A stretch of DNA of 52,013 nt, from assembly GCA_024998685.1 (NCBI GenBank), contig JACOEH010000035.1, forward strand, positions 1 to 52,013, written 5' to 3'. The translations under genes and the position numbers were made by a program. The first letter of the stretch is position 1. Each line of letters opens with the position of its first letter. Shown here piece after piece: positions 16,211 through 24,521 of the stretch. Under the pieces are notes generated by a model, which was not told the origin of the DNA, did not search any database, and saw only the letters and a program-made list of their open reading frames with translations. This stretch comes from Nitrospira sp. GTDB taxonomy: Bacteria; Nitrospirota; Nitrospiria; Nitrospirales; Nitrospiraceae.

Positions 16211-19200
16211 ATGGATGATACCGTCAAAAAAATTATGAGCGCTTCTCAGACTGACCGCCGTCCCAATCGTCTTGTCCACGAAACCAGCCCTTATTTGCTG
16301 CAACACGCCTACAACCCCGTAGACTGGTACCCCTGGGGACTGGAAGCCCTGTCCCTTGCCAAGGAAAAGAATCGGCCCATTTTGCTTTCGATCGGCTATT
16401 CCGCCTGCCACTGGTGCCATGTCATGGAGCGCGAGTCTTTTGAAAACGAGGCGATTGCGGAGCTCATGAATCGATGGTTTATCTGTATTAAGGTCGACCG
16501 GGAAGAACGGCCTGATCTCGACGAAATCTATATGGCCGCCACAGTCACGATGAATCATGGTCAGGGCGGTTGGCCGATGACGGTGTTCCTGACGCCCGCT
16601 CAAGAGCCGTTTTTCGCCGGCACGTATTTTCCTCCTGAAGACCGATGGGGCCGGCCCGGCTTCGGCACCGTTCTGAAGAAGATCGCCGACTATTGGGATG
16701 CACGTCCATCGGAAGTCCGGGAGCAGGCCAAGGAGCTGACGGCCCGGTTACAAGGCTTGAAACAGCTCCCCTCCCCCATTTCCATCAGCGAATCGGTGCT
16801 TGAAGAAGCGGTCGCCCAGTTCAAGGAGGATTTCGACGAAACCCACGGCGGGTTCGGAACAGCGCCCAAGTTTCCCCCGGCTATGGGATTGTCGTTCTTA
16901 CTCCGGAGTCACCGACGCTCGGGCGACCCCCACACCCTCACGATGGTCGCTAAGACCCTCGACATGATGGCCGCTGGCGGAATCTACGACCACATCGGCG
17001 GCGGTTTTGCGCGCTATTCGACCGATGCGCGATGGCTGGTGCCGCATTTTGAAAAAATGCTGTACGACAACGCACTCCTGGCCCGCGTGTATGTCGAGGC
17101 CTATCAGGTCACCAAGAAACCTCTCTATCGACAGGTGGCCACCGAAGTGCTCGACTATGTCCGCCGGGAAATGACCGGACCGGAAGGCGGATTCTACTCA
17201 TCGACCGATGCCGACTCGGAAGGTGTCGAAGGAAAGTTCTTTGTGTGGACTCCGACCGAGGTGCGAAACGTTCTCAAGCACGATGAGGACGCCCGACGTT
17301 TTTGCGCCCTCTACGACATCACGGAATCAGGCAATTGGGAGCACACGAGCATCCCCAATCGGCTGCGACCTCTCGAAGACGTAGCCAAGCAGCTGAATCT
17401 GACGATGGACGAGTTGACGGAGCTCGCGTCCCGAGCGAAACCTCTCTTGTACGAAGCGCGCCGACATCGCGTCCATCCAGGACTGGATGACAAGGTGATT
17501 ACGGCATGGAACGGCATGATGCTGTCGGCCATGGCCGAGGCAGCCCGAGTGTTCGGAAATGCCGACTACCTTGAAAGCGCCCAACAGACAGCGGATTTTC
17601 TGCTACGCAGCCATGCCAAGCCGGACGGCCGATTACTGCGCACATCACGCGGAGATCGCGCCCATCTCGATGCCTATCTTGAAGACTATGCGTATTTGAC
17701 CGAAGGACTGGTAGATCTCTACGAAGCCGGTTCCACTGAATCATACCTCTACGCGGCTGCGCGGCTGGCGGAGTACCTGATCAGCGACTTCATGGATCAG
17801 GGACAAGGCGGGTTTTTCACGACCGCAACGCATCATGAATCCCTTATTGTCCGGCACCGGGAAGGCATGGATGGAGCCGTTCCCAGCGCCAACGCCGTGG
17901 CCGCTTCAGCGCTTGCCCGACTGTCTTTCCACTTTGATCGTGAAGATTGGCGGCGCGCCGCGACCGCAGCCGTACGCGCTTACGGTCGGCAAATAGCCCG
18001 TTACCCCCGCGCGTTCGCCAAGAGTCTGGCCGTGGTCGATTTTCTTACGGAAGGACCGGTGGAACTGGCGATCGTGGGCGATGAGACGCAAGACGATCTT
18101 CGCGTTCTTCGTGAAGCGGTGGCGCGCCGCTACCTTCCCAATCGCATCATCGCGACTGGTTCTCCTGAGCAACCATCTTCCCTTCCACTCTTACAAAACA
18201 GACCGGTCGTTTCCGGTAAGGCGACTTTATACATCTGCCGGAATTACACCTGTCGGCAACCGATCACCGATCCTCATTCCGTCGAAGAGGCGTTGCAGGC
18301 CGACCGGAGAGCATCGACGGATCGTGGAGCCGAACCAAGACTGTTGCGAGGCGCCAGCCTCTCGGGAAGCGCCACGGTCCAGGGTACGGCGGCCTATGCG
18401 TCTCGAGTGATGGCGCGAGACGGCGAGGCAGGATCGGCAAACGGCTTCACCGTGCTCGGCGCGACGGGCTTGACCACGACCAGATTAGGATTTGGAACCT
18501 ATCGCGTCGATACACAGAACGCTGAATACCGCGACGCGTTGAAAAAGGCACTGCGGAAATCTTGCAATCTCATCGACACCTCGACGAACTATACCGACGG
18601 CGACAGCGAACGGTTAGTGGGATCCGTGCTGGTCGAACTGGCGGCCTCCGGTGAAGTTCGTCGCGATGAAATCATCGTGGTCTCCAAAATCGGGTATATC
18701 CAAGGGCAGAATCTCAAGCGCGCCGAAGCCAAAGAGCAATCCGGCCGTCCCTATCCTGAACTGGTCAAGTACGGGGACGGTATTTGGCATTGCATGCATC
18801 CGGAATTTTTGGGGGACCAACTGACTCTGTCTTTAGATCGTCTGGGACTTGCAACGCTCGATATCTGCCTTCTGCACAATCCGGAATATTTCCTGTTGGA
18901 GGCGGCACATCGCGGAGGAGGAGCCCTGGAGAACGTTCGAGACGACTTCTATGCCCGGCTCGAACGGGCGTTCGTCTACTTCGAAACCCAGGTCTCGGCA
19001 GGGCGACTTCGATATTACGGCGTGTCGTCCAATACCGTCACTTCCGCAGCCGACGACCCGGACGCGACTTCGCTCGCGCGGATGCTGGGAGCCGCTGAAG
19101 CCGCGGCCCGATCCGCCGGTGTGTCCACCAATCATTTTCGGGTGCTTCAATGCCCGATGAATCTTTTCGAGTCCGGAGCCGCCGTGACCGTCAATACCGG

Positions 19201-19915
19201 AGACTCCAACCGTCAGACCGTTCTCGAGTACGCACGAGAGAAACACATCGCAATCTTGGTGAATCGACCATTGAATGCCATGGTGGCTCCGAACAGAATG
19301 TTGCGGCTTGCAGATCTCCCGCTCGAAGACCCGCCCATCGATATCGATCGATATCTAAGCAAGGTGGGTGCGCTCGAACAGGAATACAGAGCGTCCCTCG
19401 CGCCGAATATCCCCCCGTCCGAAACAGGGACGGCATCGGATGCATACTTCAATTGGTCTGCGGAACTGCACCGCATTCGTCAGCAGATTGAAGGGCTCGA
19501 ACATTGGGAACACCTTGAGCACCAGATGATCGCTCCACACATCAATCACGTCTTACAGTTACTCACACACCAGCTTTCCGGAGACGTGGCCGAACAATGG
19601 GAACGCTGGCGCCAACGTTACATTCCGGAGCTGCTGACTCTCCTGCGGGGGTTCCGTCGCGAGGCCATCCTAAAGAGCCACGCACAGACCGAACGGGTTA
19701 CGCGAACGATCGACCCTCTCCTACCGACATCACACCGCGCCGCTTCACTGTCACAAAAAATGTTGTGGCTCCTCACGAGCACGCCCGGAGTCACTTGCGT
19801 CTTGAACGGCATGCGAGCGCCGAAATACGTCGAGGATTCGCTGGCGATCTTAAAATGGGAACCGGTCACGGATACGCGGCCCATCTATGAAGAGGCGACG
19901 GCGCTTCCTCGATGA
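16211..19915 (+). CDS. DUF255 thioredoxin-like protein fused to an aldo/keto reductase
   Basis: A 1234-residue cytoplasmic-looking protein in two parts. Residues about 17-700 are a complete DUF255 (YyaL/SSP411) protein. A thioredoxin-like domain carries CHWCHVM (Cys66, Cys69), followed by a six-hairpin-type helical domain with [11 protein letters not shown] and [12 protein letters not shown]. After a linker of about 40 residues, an aldo/keto reductase begins near residue 745 ([20 protein letters not shown]). Its catalytic tetrad is recognisable: Asp and Tyr in [11 protein letters not shown], Lys in VVSKIG, His in LLHNPE. A helical insertion occupies about 1080-1160. The start could instead be ATG 16235; neither has a strong ribosome site. 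Function is unknown; the fusion suggests a redox pair acting on one carbonyl or sugar-like substrate. Confidence 0.9.
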
Positions 19916-20650: not shown

Positions 20651-22204
20651 GTGTCTAAGCTCGCCGTTATCGATATCGGGACGAACTCCATTCATATGGT
20701 GCTGGCTGAGATTCTCCCGGATGCCGGTTTCAAGATACTCGACCGTTTTAAGGACATGACGCGTCTGGGCAACGGTGTATTCTCAACCAGGCGGCTCTCG
20801 GAAGAGGCCATGACCCGTGCGCTGGACGTCCTCAAGACGCTGGTCACGCTCGCCCGCAACAAAGGATTCGACCGTATCATCGCCGTCGCGACCAGTGCCG
20901 TGCGTGAAGCCCGAAACGGCGGCGACTTCGTGGCCTTCATCATGGAACAGACAGGCCTGAGGGTGCGGGTGATCAGCGGGACAGAGGAAGCTCGGCTGAT
21001 TTTCCTGGGCGTCAAGCACAGTATCGCCCTCCCGGATGGACCGACGCTTGTCGTCGACATCGGGGGCGGCTCCGTGGAGTTGATCGTAGGGAATCGAGAA
21101 GGTCTGATCCACGGCAAGAGTCTCAAACTCGGAGCGATTCGTTTGGCTGAGCAATTCCTCCCCAAAGCTCCACCCTCTGAGTCGATGCTGTATGCCTTGA
21201 ACGATGCCGTACTCACCCATCTGCGCGACGCGCTCGGATCATTCAAGATGAAGAAATTTCATTCATTGGTCGCCACCTCCGGGATGGCAGGGAACCTCGG
21301 TGAGGTCGCCCATCTCCGTCAAACCGGACGACCATTGCCGCAGCATAATCTGGCGACCGTCTCATTAAAGGATGTCCGTAGCCTTGAAACGGAGTTGGCT
21401 CGATCATCAGTAAAGGCTCGTTTGGCGATTCCCGGTCTAGACCCAAAGCGTGTCGATACGCTGTTGCCGACTGCCGTGATTCTCCGGCGGCTTTTGGAAC
21501 TGTCCGATCTCAGCGAGATCACGCTCTGCGACAAGGCTATCCGTGAGGGTGTCATCTACGATTTTATCGTACGGCATCGAGAGGGTCTCAAGGCCGAAAA
21601 TGATATTCCCGACGTTCGTCGTCGCAACGTGATCAGCCTTGCCCGACGCTGCCAGGCGCCGGAGGTCCATTCACTCCATGTGGCCGACTTGGCACTGAGT
21701 CTGTTCGATCAAACCAAGAGAGAACATCGCTTGGGACAACAGGAACGCACCTGGCTGGAATACGCAGCCATTCTGCACGATGTCGGATATCTCATCAATC
21801 CGAGACAACATCATAAACACGCGTACTACCTCATCAAACATAGCGACTTGGGCGGGTTGGCGGCTGAGGAAATCGATATGGTGGCCAACATCGCTCGCTA
21901 CCACCGGCGGGCGTTGCCGTCGCTGAAGCACGAAGCATTCGATTGTTTGACGCCTCGCTTGCGACGTGTGGTCAAGATCCTTGCTTCGTTGCTTCGGATA
22001 GCCGACGGGCTCGACCGGACCCATTTCTCGCTCGTTCAGGCCGTGAACGTTAGGTTTAAGAAAGAGATTACGATCGAAGTTCATTTGACGGGAGACGCAG
22101 AAATGGAATTGTGGGCCGCAAAGAGCAGAGCCGACCTGTTCGAACAGATCTTCCATCGACCGGTCCTGTTCTCCGGGGTGCTGCCGGAAACCGAGCCGTC
22201 ATGA
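20651..22204 (+). CDS. ppx: Ppx/GppA phosphatase with C-terminal HD domain
   Basis: A 517-residue enzyme of the exopolyphosphatase/pppGpp phosphatase family, which removes terminal phosphate from polyphosphate or from pppGpp. The ASKHA-type first domain starts at IDIGTNSIHMVLAEI, with the second phosphate loop DIGGGSVELIVG at about 136-147. Residues about 330-470 form an HD domain (HVADLALSLFDQ, then LHDVGY at about 375 and IARYHRR), the longer Ppx arrangement. GTG 20651 is used as start after a GGGA site. The stop overlaps the next ATG (ATGA), so it is cotranslated with the two kinase-like genes. Substrate cannot be settled from sequence. Confidence 0.92.
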   Translation: MSKLAVIDIGTNSIHMVLAEILPDAGFKILDRFKDMTRLGNGVFSTRRLSEEAMTRALDVLKTLVTLARNKGFDRIIAVATSAVREARNGGDFVAFIMEQTGLRVRVISGTEEARLIFLGVKHSIALPDGPTLVVDIGGGSVELIVGNREGLIHGKSLKLGAIRLAEQFLPKAPPSESMLYALNDAVLTHLRDALGSFKMKKFHSLVATSGMAGNLGEVAHLRQTGRPLPQHNLATVSLKDVRSLETELARSSVKARLAIPGLDPKRVDTLLPTAVILRRLLELSDLSEITLCDKAIREGVIYDFIVRHREGLKAENDIPDVRRRNVISLARRCQAPEVHSLHVADLALSLFDQTKREHRLGQQERTWLEYAAILHDVGYLINPRQHHKHAYYLIKHSDLGGLAAEEIDMVANIARYHRRALPSLKHEAFDCLTPRLRRVVKILASLLRIADGLDRTHFSLVQAVNVRFKKEITIEVHLTGDAEMELWAAKSRADLFEQIFHRPVLFSGVLPETEPS

Positions 22205-22950
22205 CCGAACCCCACCTACTCAAGACAACTCCTCACCCTCATCCCGGGAAGCTGATCATCGTCGAAGGTATCGATGGGTCAGGGAAAAGCACTCAACTAC
22301 AACTGCTGCATAAATGGCTTGAGTCCAAAGGGCACAAGGTGTTCTTTACGGAATGGAATTCATCGGCACTCGTGAAAGAAACCACGAAACGAGGGAAAAA
22401 ATCGAAGAGCCTCACTCCCACGACGTTCAGTTTGCTGCATGCCACCGATTTTGCCAGCCGCCTCTACCATCAGATCCTCCCGCCTCTGAAGGCGGGCATG
22501 CTTGTCCTCGCCGATCGATATATGTACACGGCGTTTGCGCGCGATGTGGTGCGCGGCGTTGCGAACGAGTGGGTCCGCAAACTCTACGCGTTTGCGATCA
22601 GGCCGGATATGGCGTTTTATTTCAAGGTCCCGATCGAAGTCGCCATCTCTCGGCTCGCACGAGGGACTCGCGGTCACTTCAAGTACTATGAAGCCGGCAT
22701 GGACATGGATTTGAGCCAGGACATCACCGAAAGTTTCCGACTCTTTCAATCACGGATTCTCGCGGAGTACGACAAGATCGTCGACGAATGCGGTCTGCTG
22801 ACGATGGACGCGACCCAAGGTATCGAGACACAGCAGGAACAGATGCGGGCGCTGGTGGAAGAAGCGCTCCGTGGCTATAAACCCAGACGAGGCACCTATG
22901 GCCGACGCACGCTTTTTTGGCGACGGTTTGACATACCTAGATCCGAGTGA
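22201..22950 (+). CDS. tmk: Thymidylate-kinase-like P-loop kinase, first copy
   Basis: A 249-residue P-loop kinase of the thymidylate kinase family. Walker A is intact (EGIDGSGKST, Lys29), and the DRY motif appears as LADRYMYTAFARD. Canonical enzymes phosphorylate dTMP to dTDP. It is longer than the usual 205-215 residues, and the segment after DRY is not the standard one. A TMK-fold enzyme with another substrate is therefore possible. ATG 22201 overlaps the ppx stop by 4 nt. The 3' end overlaps the second kinase gene by 53 nt. The C-terminus is basic (KPRRGTYGRR). Confidence 0.82.
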   Translation: MTEPHLLKTTPHPHPGKLIIVEGIDGSGKSTQLQLLHKWLESKGHKVFFTEWNSSALVKETTKRGKKSKSLTPTTFSLLHATDFASRLYHQILPPLKAGMLVLADRYMYTAFARDVVRGVANEWVRKLYAFAIRPDMAFYFKVPIEVAISRLARGTRGHFKYYEAGMDMDLSQDITESFRLFQSRILAEYDKIVDECGLLTMDATQGIETQQEQMRALVEEALRGYKPRRGTYGRRTLFWRRFDIPRSE

Positions 22951-23620
22951 GCTGAAAGGCAAGTTGATCGCCGTCGAGGGAACCGACGGAGTCGGCCGAT
23001 CGACCCATATCGAGATGCTGCAAGAGTGGCTGGAGGTCCAGGGGTACGGAGTGATGACGACCGGATGGACCCGTTCCAATCTCATGTCAAAAACCATCGA
23101 ATTGGCGAAGGCCGGCAACATCGTCGATCGTTGGTCGCTCAGTCTGCTCTATGCGACGGATTTCGCCGATCGCCTCGAACATCAGATCATCCCGGCGCTC
23201 CGATCCGGATTCGTCGTCTTGACGGATCGCTATATCTATACGGCGTTCGCGCGCGATTTCGTGCGGAGCGCCGACCGACAATGGATCCGTGACGTGTTCG
23301 GGTTTGCGTTGATTCCCGACCTGGTCTGCTACCTTCGAATCGACGTGGAAACCCTGGCGCTTCGAGTCATCGAGACCACCGGAATGAATTACTGGGAATC
23401 CGGAATGGATCTCCGTCTTGGGGGCGATCTCTATGATAGTTTCAAAAAATACCAATCGCTGTTGATCGAAGAATTCGATAAGATGGCGATTGAATTTCGC
23501 TTCAATGTCGTCGATGCGAGAAAGTCTCCCGAGGAAATCCAGGATGAGCTTCGAGGATATATTCTCCGGGTGCTCCAGAACCACAAAGCTCCGATTGATA
23601 CTGAACCGGCGCCCTCTTAA
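22898..23620 (+). CDS. Thymidylate-kinase-like protein, second copy with altered P-loop
   Basis: A 240-residue paralogue of the preceding gene, with the same blocks in the same order (SLLYATDFADRLEHQI, LTDRYIYTAFARDFV, then YWESGMDLRLGGDLYDSF). Its Walker A reads EGTDGVGRST: the Lys that contacts the ATP phosphates is Arg34. P-loop Lys to Arg usually lowers or abolishes kinase activity, so this may be a regulatory or structural partner, although the rest of the fold is well kept. ATG 22898 is chosen for its GAGG site; a GTG at 22871 is also open. It overlaps tmk by 53 nt and runs 4 nt into the convergent sixA stop. Frame, length and similarity leave little doubt that it is a real gene. Confidence 0.85.
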   Translation: MADARFFGDGLTYLDPSELKGKLIAVEGTDGVGRSTHIEMLQEWLEVQGYGVMTTGWTRSNLMSKTIELAKAGNIVDRWSLSLLYATDFADRLEHQIIPALRSGFVVLTDRYIYTAFARDFVRSADRQWIRDVFGFALIPDLVCYLRIDVETLALRVIETTGMNYWESGMDLRLGGDLYDSFKKYQSLLIEEFDKMAIEFRFNVVDARKSPEEIQDELRGYILRVLQNHKAPIDTEPAPS

Positions 23621-24150
23621 GACTGTTCAATCCGTTTCTTGCCGTACGCCCGCTTTCCTATGATCCGCAGCTGCCTCGGCTGCAGCCACCAGCACAACCG
23701 CCCCCGGCCCTGGTTGAGAACGTCCTCTGATTCGACCAGCACCGCCCCGGCCTTCTTGAGCGGAAAGTTGGGAAGGGCCTTTCCACAGAGCAACAGGCTT
23801 ACCGCTTCACCGAGCTGAGGTTCATGTCCCACACATACCACCACCGCATCCGCCGGGAGTGCATGCAATAATTCAACAAGCTGCTGAGGCTTCGCTCCGA
23901 CAACCAGCTCCTCGCGCGTTTCGACCTTCAGAGTCGGACAGACCGCTGCGCGTAAGAGCCTCGCCGTATCATAGGCACGCACAAAGGGACTCGTGAACAG
24001 ATGGGTCGGCTTACAGTCAAGCGCCGCCAACCCCTCGGCGGCCTGCCGAACACGTCTTTTCCCCTTCTCCGTGAGAGGTCGATTCTCCTCCGTTCCATCC
24101 CATTCATCAGGCTCTACCGCAATCCCGTGACGAACCAAAAGACAGTCCAT
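23617..24150 (-). CDS. sixA: SixA-type phosphohistidine phosphatase
   Basis: A 177-residue member of the histidine phosphatase superfamily. The RHG motif sits at the N-terminus (LLVRHGIAV, His8), and the second catalytic His is in VGHEPQL near residue 106. A Glu/Asp-rich loop (EPDEWDGTEENRPLTEKG) is typical of SixA, which removes phosphate from phospho-His proteins. ATG 24150 is chosen over GTG 24156 for better spacing from AGAGG. The C-terminal part (about 145-177) is an added basic tail. Its stop overlaps the stop of the second kinase gene, so the two transcripts converge. SixA-like genes are often found near Ppx and polyphosphate genes, which fits here. Confidence 0.88.
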   Translation of the reverse strand: MDCLLVRHGIAVEPDEWDGTEENRPLTEKGKRRVRQAAEGLAALDCKPTHLFTSPFVRAYDTARLLRAAVCPTLKVETREELVVGAKPQQLVELLHALPADAVVVCVGHEPQLGEAVSLLLCGKALPNFPLKKAGAVLVESEDVLNQGRGRLCWWLQPRQLRIIGKRAYGKKRIEQS

Positions 24151-24521
24151 AACCACCTCTCTACATAGTAGGGCCCGAGCCTACCACAGAGAGCCGGTGC
24201 AATTAACACAAGTTTTACATGGATGTGACGATTTTGGAACGGTGGCGAGATACCTTGCTCACGAGAGAGAAGGGGAGAAACGAAGCGATTGCACCAGGAA
24301 ACACTTCCCGGCTCATCTCCACCCTGGCTTCTTGTTTTAGATGTACGGGTTTACACAGCATCATGCCGCGGCTAGGACTCGAATCGCTTCGTTTACTTGT
24401 TGGGATATCCGCTTGCTCCTCGATCACTCAGCCGCGCCATGGCCGTTCGGTGGAGTCCGGCCGTGAGAACAACGGCCGATGATATCACTCGCAATGACCT
24501 GTGCGACCATGGAGGAATACA
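24151..24521. other. Non-coding stretch with several inverted repeats
   Basis: No convincing gene in 371 bases. It lies between sixA and the small gene at 24522. It holds a perfect 13-bp inverted repeat (24278-24290 with 24382-24394), an 8-bp inverted pair that shares three bases with it (24196-24203 with 24288-24295), and a compact 7-bp hairpin with a 7-nt loop (24458-24478). The two larger pairings exclude each other. A possible 87-codon frame here (24219-24482) has no ribosome site or family likeness. Confidence 0.6.
24278..24394. repeat. 13-bp perfect inverted repeat
   Basis: AAACGAAGCGATT at 24278-24290 and its exact reverse complement at 24382-24394, separated by 91 bases. No target-site duplication or transposase is seen beside it. 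It could be a remnant of a small mobile element, a protein-binding site, or the stem of a structured RNA. Confidence 0.6.

Follow-up and report, generated by a model that had tools for sequence, protein, structure and literature searches.

What do two adjoining genes of the thymidylate kinase (TMK) family do directly downstream of a gene for a Ppx/GppA phosphatase? This question is raised by a stretch of 52,013 nucleotides (nt) from Nitrospira sp. (assembly GCA_024998685.1, contig JACOEH010000035.1), here called the window, in which ppx, tmk1 and tmk2 follow one another on the forward strand. The analysis makes us fairly confident that tmk1 and tmk2 encode a TMK-fold phosphotransferase that is conserved as two genes and has one silent subunit. 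As a whole explanation, we lean towards reading the pair as the bacterial equivalent of the polyphosphate kinase of crenarchaea. The genes and their relevant sites were as follows:

ppx, 20651..22204, + strand: Ppx/GppA phosphatase of 517 amino acids (aa) carrying an HD domain at its C-terminus; GTG start, TGA stop at 22202-22204
ATGA overlap, 22201..22204, + strand: ppx stop and tmk1 start, 4 nt
tmk1, 22201..22950, + strand: TMK-fold phosphotransferase of 249 aa and putative catalytic subunit, P-loop Lys and DRY both intact; ATG start, TGA stop
tmk1 Walker A motif EGIDGSGKST, 22264..22293, + strand: Lys codon at 22285-22287
tmk1/tmk2 coding overlap, 22898..22950, + strand: 53 nt, probably coupling translation of the two genes
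tmk2, 22898..23620, + strand: paralogue of tmk1, 240 aa, P-loop Lys replaced by Arg, altered LID, putative non-catalytic partner; ATG start, TAA stop
tmk2 Walker A motif EGTDGVGRST, 22976..23005, + strand: Lys replaced by Arg, Arg codon at 22997-22999

The two overlaps and the exchange of the P-loop Lys for Arg in tmk2 confirmed what the initial annotation of this DNA had read from the letters. Its claim that the two kinase-like proteins are paralogues was also borne out: they shared 41% identity across the aligned part (E 1.5e-52) and both matched PF02223, tmk1 with 84 bits and tmk2 with 67 bits (Pfam cut-off 27). An alternative in-frame GTG start of tmk2 lies at 22871, ahead of the ATG at 22898; the ATG has a GAGG 5 nt upstream, and most relatives aligned from its residue 1 (tblastn).

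Catalytic residues and conservation of the pair

The distribution of the pair was determined by searching 295 genomes of the phylum for tmk1 and 59 genomes for tmk2, the window's own genome being in both sets. tmk1 (E<=1e-20) was present in 67 of the 295 genomes and the second paralogue in every one of these 67. A total of 152 close relatives of tmk2 were found in genome contigs, and the best 80 of the 152 all had Nitrospirota-type record titles. One family outside the window's own class, f21, which from its gene neighbours may be Leptospirillum-like, carried the pair in 17 of 21 genomes, with the partner gene upstream of tmk1.

Catalytic residues were read in the 67 genomes by tblastn without a motif filter, and each gene was labelled as tmk1 or partner by its best-scoring query. 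The tmk1 gene had the P-loop Lys and DRY in 67/67 genomes, including two in which it was read from two pieces each (G266, where contigs end, and G280, where the frame is broken). Outside f21 the partner carried Arg together with DRY in all 50 genomes, including one of the own class that belongs to another family (G171); the lack of the Arg variant in relatives, which the initial annotation had named as evidence against its proposal, was not observed. In f21 the partner had kept the Lys, and DRY was replaced by EQY (17/17 genomes). As the partner was altered at a different catalytic site in each lineage and tmk1 at neither, these residues are the strongest evidence for the division into an active and a degenerate half that had been suggested from the window by itself.

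Beyond these positions, both proteins of the window contain DRY and TAFARD. In the alignment, tmk2 from the Nitrospiria side was without the basic LID segment seen in tmk1, and it retained DRY, R114, E164-x-G-x-D168, Q183 and R216 (tmk1 numbering) in 14 of 14 rows. The ratio of nonsynonymous to synonymous substitution rates (dN/dS; Nei-Gojobori, own script, 53-nt overlap left out) between the tmk2 of the window and 15 relatives was 0.034-0.077 in 14 comparisons and undefined in one; for tmk1 the 15 comparisons gave 0.026-0.073. Because its dN/dS is as low as that of tmk1, tmk2 is not decaying, and a pseudogene was ruled out by this equal purifying selection.

The layout was equally constant. 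The order ppx-tmk1-tmk2 was found by tblastn in nearly all loci of sufficient length, and the overlap between tmk1 and tmk2 had the identical length in 97 of the 111 loci holding both genes, which were chosen by their P-loop motifs and comprise 74 distinct protein pairs and hence some copies. Since the same overlap recurred in 97/111 loci and Arg in 50/50 genomes, the combined pattern is not due to chance. Rows of the partner grouped together in only 24% of bootstrap trees. We infer that the partner was disabled independently in two classes; the tree is compatible with a single old duplication followed by separate defects and also with separate duplications.

Some loci departed from the usual layout. 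In the genome G004 (locus L031, ∼1430-1656), the start of tmk1 up to the P-loop was fused to the tail of tmk2 between matches to ppx and sixA, a remnant that, judged by its sequence, is apparently the scar of a loss of the pair. In L180/L069 and in L017/L053, two distinct sequences that each occurred twice, the tmk1 frame breaks off at a run of C close to residue 94; sequencing error and real loss both fit. On the contig G034:C102 (L013 and 98775-99774), tmk2 occurs a second time, accompanied by a partial tmk1, ∼16 kb from the first copy, and L046 and L050, on a contig of isolate YR-XLJ-1, had the same layout and perhaps come from the same genome. Mobile origins of tmk1 were rejected, as the best among 20 of its 28 plasmid matches was only 33.6% identical and the best among 20 of its 23 phage matches only 31.3%. 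Among the plasmid and phage matches listed, many were annotated simply as thymidylate kinase.

Kinship to ST1543 and to ordinary thymidylate kinases

The structures of both proteins were predicted with AlphaFold2 (mean predicted local distance difference test score 85.7 for tmk1 and 83.2 for tmk2) and compared with solved structures. Four structures of ST1543 from S. tokodaii (PDB 2plr, 4nzy, 4rzx and 5h70) came out best for the tmk1 model (VIA Z 27.1-27.5, with 205-211 residues matched at 1.6-2.1 Å) and again for the tmk2 model (Z 26.1-26.8). Canonical TMKs ranked after ST1543 (Z <=24.3), and no PPK2, a family of polyphosphate kinases (PPKs), was present among the best 50 structural matches listed for either model. 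Sequence comparison with solved structures gave the same result, with E values for ST1543 of 1e-53 (tmk1) and 9.7e-46 (tmk2) and next-best values of 1.9e-15 and 2.9e-10, respectively. In the tree, tmk1 grouped with ST1543 with branch supports of 96/94. ST1543 shares with tmk1 the P-loop EGIDGSGKS, WNSS, DRYIYTAYARD and EAG in the LID; unlike the pair, it is a single protein in its PDB entries.

From three canonical TMKs the pair was separated in the tree by a very long branch. The REPGG and AYQ-type motifs are nucleotide (dTMP) contacts of ordinary TMKs. At the aligned sites, EWNSS (tmk1 and ST1543) or GWTRS (tmk2) was found for the former and ARD or FARD for the latter. A segment E-x-G-x-D in the LID was common to the pair and the ST1543 rows and missing from the three canonical TMKs aligned.

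The initial annotation had also held that its proposal would fall if tmk1 were the only tmk copy of its genome. A separate canonical TMK of the PF02223 family, which does carry the REPGG and AYQ motifs, was found at G000:C27 8331-8897, ahead of a gene that we named holB-like, and a role of tmk1 as the sole dTMP kinase of its own genome was thereby ruled out. The PF02223 search of the 295 genomes gave a separate TMK match (E<1e-35) in 58 of the 67 genomes with the pair.

Neighbouring genes and polyphosphate

The ppx product matched the Pfam families Ppx-GppA (208 bits), Ppx-GppA_III (101 bits) and HD (37 bits), and it remained under every NCBIfam cut-off (exo_poly_only, 269 bits with 307 needed; PPX, 200 with 864 needed; GppA, 192 with 624 needed). 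It is thus a predicted member of the Ppx/GppA family, and its scores place it in neither Ppx nor GppA specifically. In the stretches fetched around the pair, Ppx adjoined tmk1 in 50/50 non-f21 genomes, and in f21 it was near the pair and rearranged in 8/17 genomes, which upheld a linkage of the pair with Ppx across lineages. The pair is followed by a convergent gene:

SixA-like histidine phosphatase gene, 23617..24156, - strand: TIGR00249 65.5 bits, under the cut-off of 74.5

A SixA-like gene was found in the fetched stretch of 44/50 non-f21 genomes. Further upstream, a 1234-aa frame (16211-19915, + strand) joins a DUF255/thioredoxin-like region (Thioredox_DsbH) to an aldo/keto-reductase-like region, and in many Nitrospira loci the match covers the frame as far as its C-terminus.

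The polyphosphate link made in the initial annotation is supported by circumstantial evidence, part of which concerns a crenarchaeal enzyme, reportedly a heteromeric member of the TMK family whose genes lie next to ppx. The enzyme, from Sulfolobus acidocaldarius, is cited as an 'archaeal family 3 polyphosphate kinase' (PPK3; Hofmann et al., 2024 preprint; Hofmann, Kogay et al. 2026, JBC 302:111283). The Sulfolobales protein ST1543, the closest solved relative of both proteins of the pair and possibly the archaeal kinase subunit itself, would connect it with the pair. The position beside ppx, recorded for the genomes above, has its archaeal parallel in a figure legend, and the presence of both paralogue genes in all 67 genomes with tmk1 may correspond to a reported make-up of two paralogous subunits on the archaeal side. 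The pair differs in its bacterial host and in having partner defects of two kinds.

On the archaeal side, a figure legend on biomining archaea shows SixA, PPX, dTMP kinase and CHAD together (PMC10892726). A passage in PMC7831078 holds that crenarchaea accumulate polyphosphate, yet that no archaeal PPK homologue had been found. A crenarchaeal polyphosphate synthase from S. acidocaldarius is mentioned as recently characterised in a passage of PMC11677633, which cites Hofmann et al. 2024, and a passage of PMC13318637 calls the S. acidocaldarius enzyme a distinct PPK type, citing the 2026 JBC version. The initial annotation had regarded the genes as an undescribed small system; this is doubtful, as these passages cite a distinct polyphosphate kinase from crenarchaea. 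A record of the bacterial pair was not found in the titles and abstract starts of open-licence PMC text, which is a weak negative.

To place the pair among known polyphosphate enzymes, we compared its distribution with those of PPK1, PPK2 and Ppx/GppA, which had matches in 57, 99 and 246 of the 295 genomes, respectively. A PPK1 match was missing in 49 of the 67 genomes with the pair and in all f21 genomes, and 12 genomes with the pair had neither a PPK1 nor a PPK2 match. Many of these genomes had Ppx and PPK2 matches and no PPK1 match, and the pair would be a candidate source of their polyphosphate. Among the 79 genomes of the own family, 18 had the pair and PPK1, 29 the pair alone, 23 PPK1 alone and 9 neither (Fisher, p 0.0056; p 0.51 in the 40 genomes of the genus; both uncorrected for kinship). 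The counts hint at a substitution of PPK1 by the pair. A strict replacement was ruled out by the own-family genomes with both and with neither.

A relation to PPK2, which the initial annotation had brought up, did not hold at the level of sequence: PF03976 was not among the Pfam matches of tmk1 and tmk2 at E<=1, and tmk1 gave only a weak 12.9-bit P-loop match to TIGR03708. Class II PPK2 enzymes consist of a degenerate and an active half fused to one another. PPK2 resembles the pair as a P-loop kinase of related fold, whereas the pair is encoded by two separate genes and belongs to the TMK family by sequence, with no PPK2 family match. In a DALI search for the Francisella PPK2, as given in a passage of PMC4748334, the ST1543 entry 2PLR ranks directly behind the PPK2s.

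Explanations for the pair

The explanations weighed here start from the same direct observations, namely the gene order, the overlaps, the co-occurrence, the constant partner defects, the purifying selection, the kinship to ST1543 and the linkage to Ppx. In the explanation that we lean towards, tmk1 and tmk2 would together form a single TMK-fold phosphotransferase, tmk1 being its putative catalytic subunit. Having lost the P-loop Lys, tmk2 would probably carry out no phosphate transfer; its most likely role would be a structural or regulatory one, as half of a heteromer in which the two subunits pair as in the usual TMK dimer. The most likely substrate would be polyphosphate, to which the enzyme may add the phosphate of a nucleoside triphosphate or, in reverse, from which it may recharge ADP; the adjoining Ppx would break down the same polymer. 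A further-reaching version is held only tentatively: that a heteromeric TMK-fold polyphosphate kinase exists in bacteria and, within this phylum, takes the place of PPK1 in the distant family f21 and in many nitrite oxidisers of the Nitrospira type, and that the disabling of the partner at different residues in two classes reflects a conserved requirement that one half be silent, as a chain guide or an allosteric sensor.

A number of observations weigh against a polyphosphate kinase of this kind. No Ppx was located within the fetched stretch of 9/17 f21 genomes. A SixA-like match, with the window's sixA as query, was found in 0/17 f21 stretches; the convergent sixA that the initial annotation had tied to the system thus stood beside the pair outside f21 and not within it. 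Complementarity of the pair with PPK1 is weak, and in the own genome PPK1 is present next to CYTH-CHAD and CorA, with a separate PPK2 elsewhere, so that the pair is not its sole possible polyphosphate kinase. The branch of ST1543 is long, and the tree tool flags joins of this type as possibly false. ST1543 is moreover a dTMP kinase by its PDB title, and the NCBIfam dTMP kinase equivalog model TIGR00041 (cut-off 83.25) accepts tmk1 with 96 bits, tmk2 remaining below with 72.7 bits. A TMK match below 1e-35 (PF02223) was missing in 9 of the 67 genomes with the pair, where a dTMP role of the pair is possible. Finally, in G162 (L139 and L140) ∼39 kb of a single contig separated tmk1 (with ppx) from tmk2 (with sixA), and both genes could still be read.

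Several of these points would suit a heteromeric nucleotide kinase acting on dTMP, dUMP or another nucleoside monophosphate, that is, a specialised second TMK beside a Ppx/GppA protein that acts on (p)ppGpp-type nucleotides in place of polyphosphate. The TMK fold, the TIGR00041 score of tmk1 and the neighbour's fit to neither the Ppx nor the GppA cut-off agree with it, as do the nine genomes without a strong canonical TMK. These nine are G009 (95% complete) and eight f21 assemblies (66-96% complete), and two canonical TMKs used as queries found none in them either (in G123, in one of the two query runs). Such absences are soft, because G021, a single contig that is 99% complete, likewise gave no thymidylate kinase with PF02223 or with the own canonical TMK, as did G067 and G173. 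The separate TMKs of the other 58 genomes, with the own one ahead of the holB-like gene, and the changed residues at the sites aligned to canonical dTMP-contact motifs speak against this explanation, and we consider it unlikely. The split locus of G162 would be easier to understand if tmk1 and tmk2 each formed a homodimer, the second being a separate ligand sensor that regulates tmk1 or Ppx, and the genes were merely co-expressed. That tmk2 keeps many invariant residues of the subfamily despite the lost Lys, and may still bind a ligand, points the same way; the co-occurrence in 67/67 genomes and the constant overlap fit a stoichiometric complex better, which makes two homodimers improbable. 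Very improbable, in our view, is a pair in which both subunits are active and Arg or EQY is tolerated and tunes specificity. The Lys kept by the f21 partners and the strong purifying selection on tmk2 are in line with this, whereas two catalytic positions were altered in two lineages with tmk1 varying at neither (67/67), and the Nitrospiria-side tmk2 lacks the basic LID segment of tmk1.

If the pair does correspond to the polyphosphate kinase of crenarchaea, it would add a bacterial member to the kind described there and be no new kind; what may be new is that the partner was silenced in two ways. Genes now labelled as dTMP kinase would be misnamed if the pair makes polyphosphate, and the crenarchaeal kinase type would then extend to nitrite-oxidising bacteria. 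A pair of an active and a silent subunit in a very small P-loop kinase would thereby become open to a direct biochemical test.

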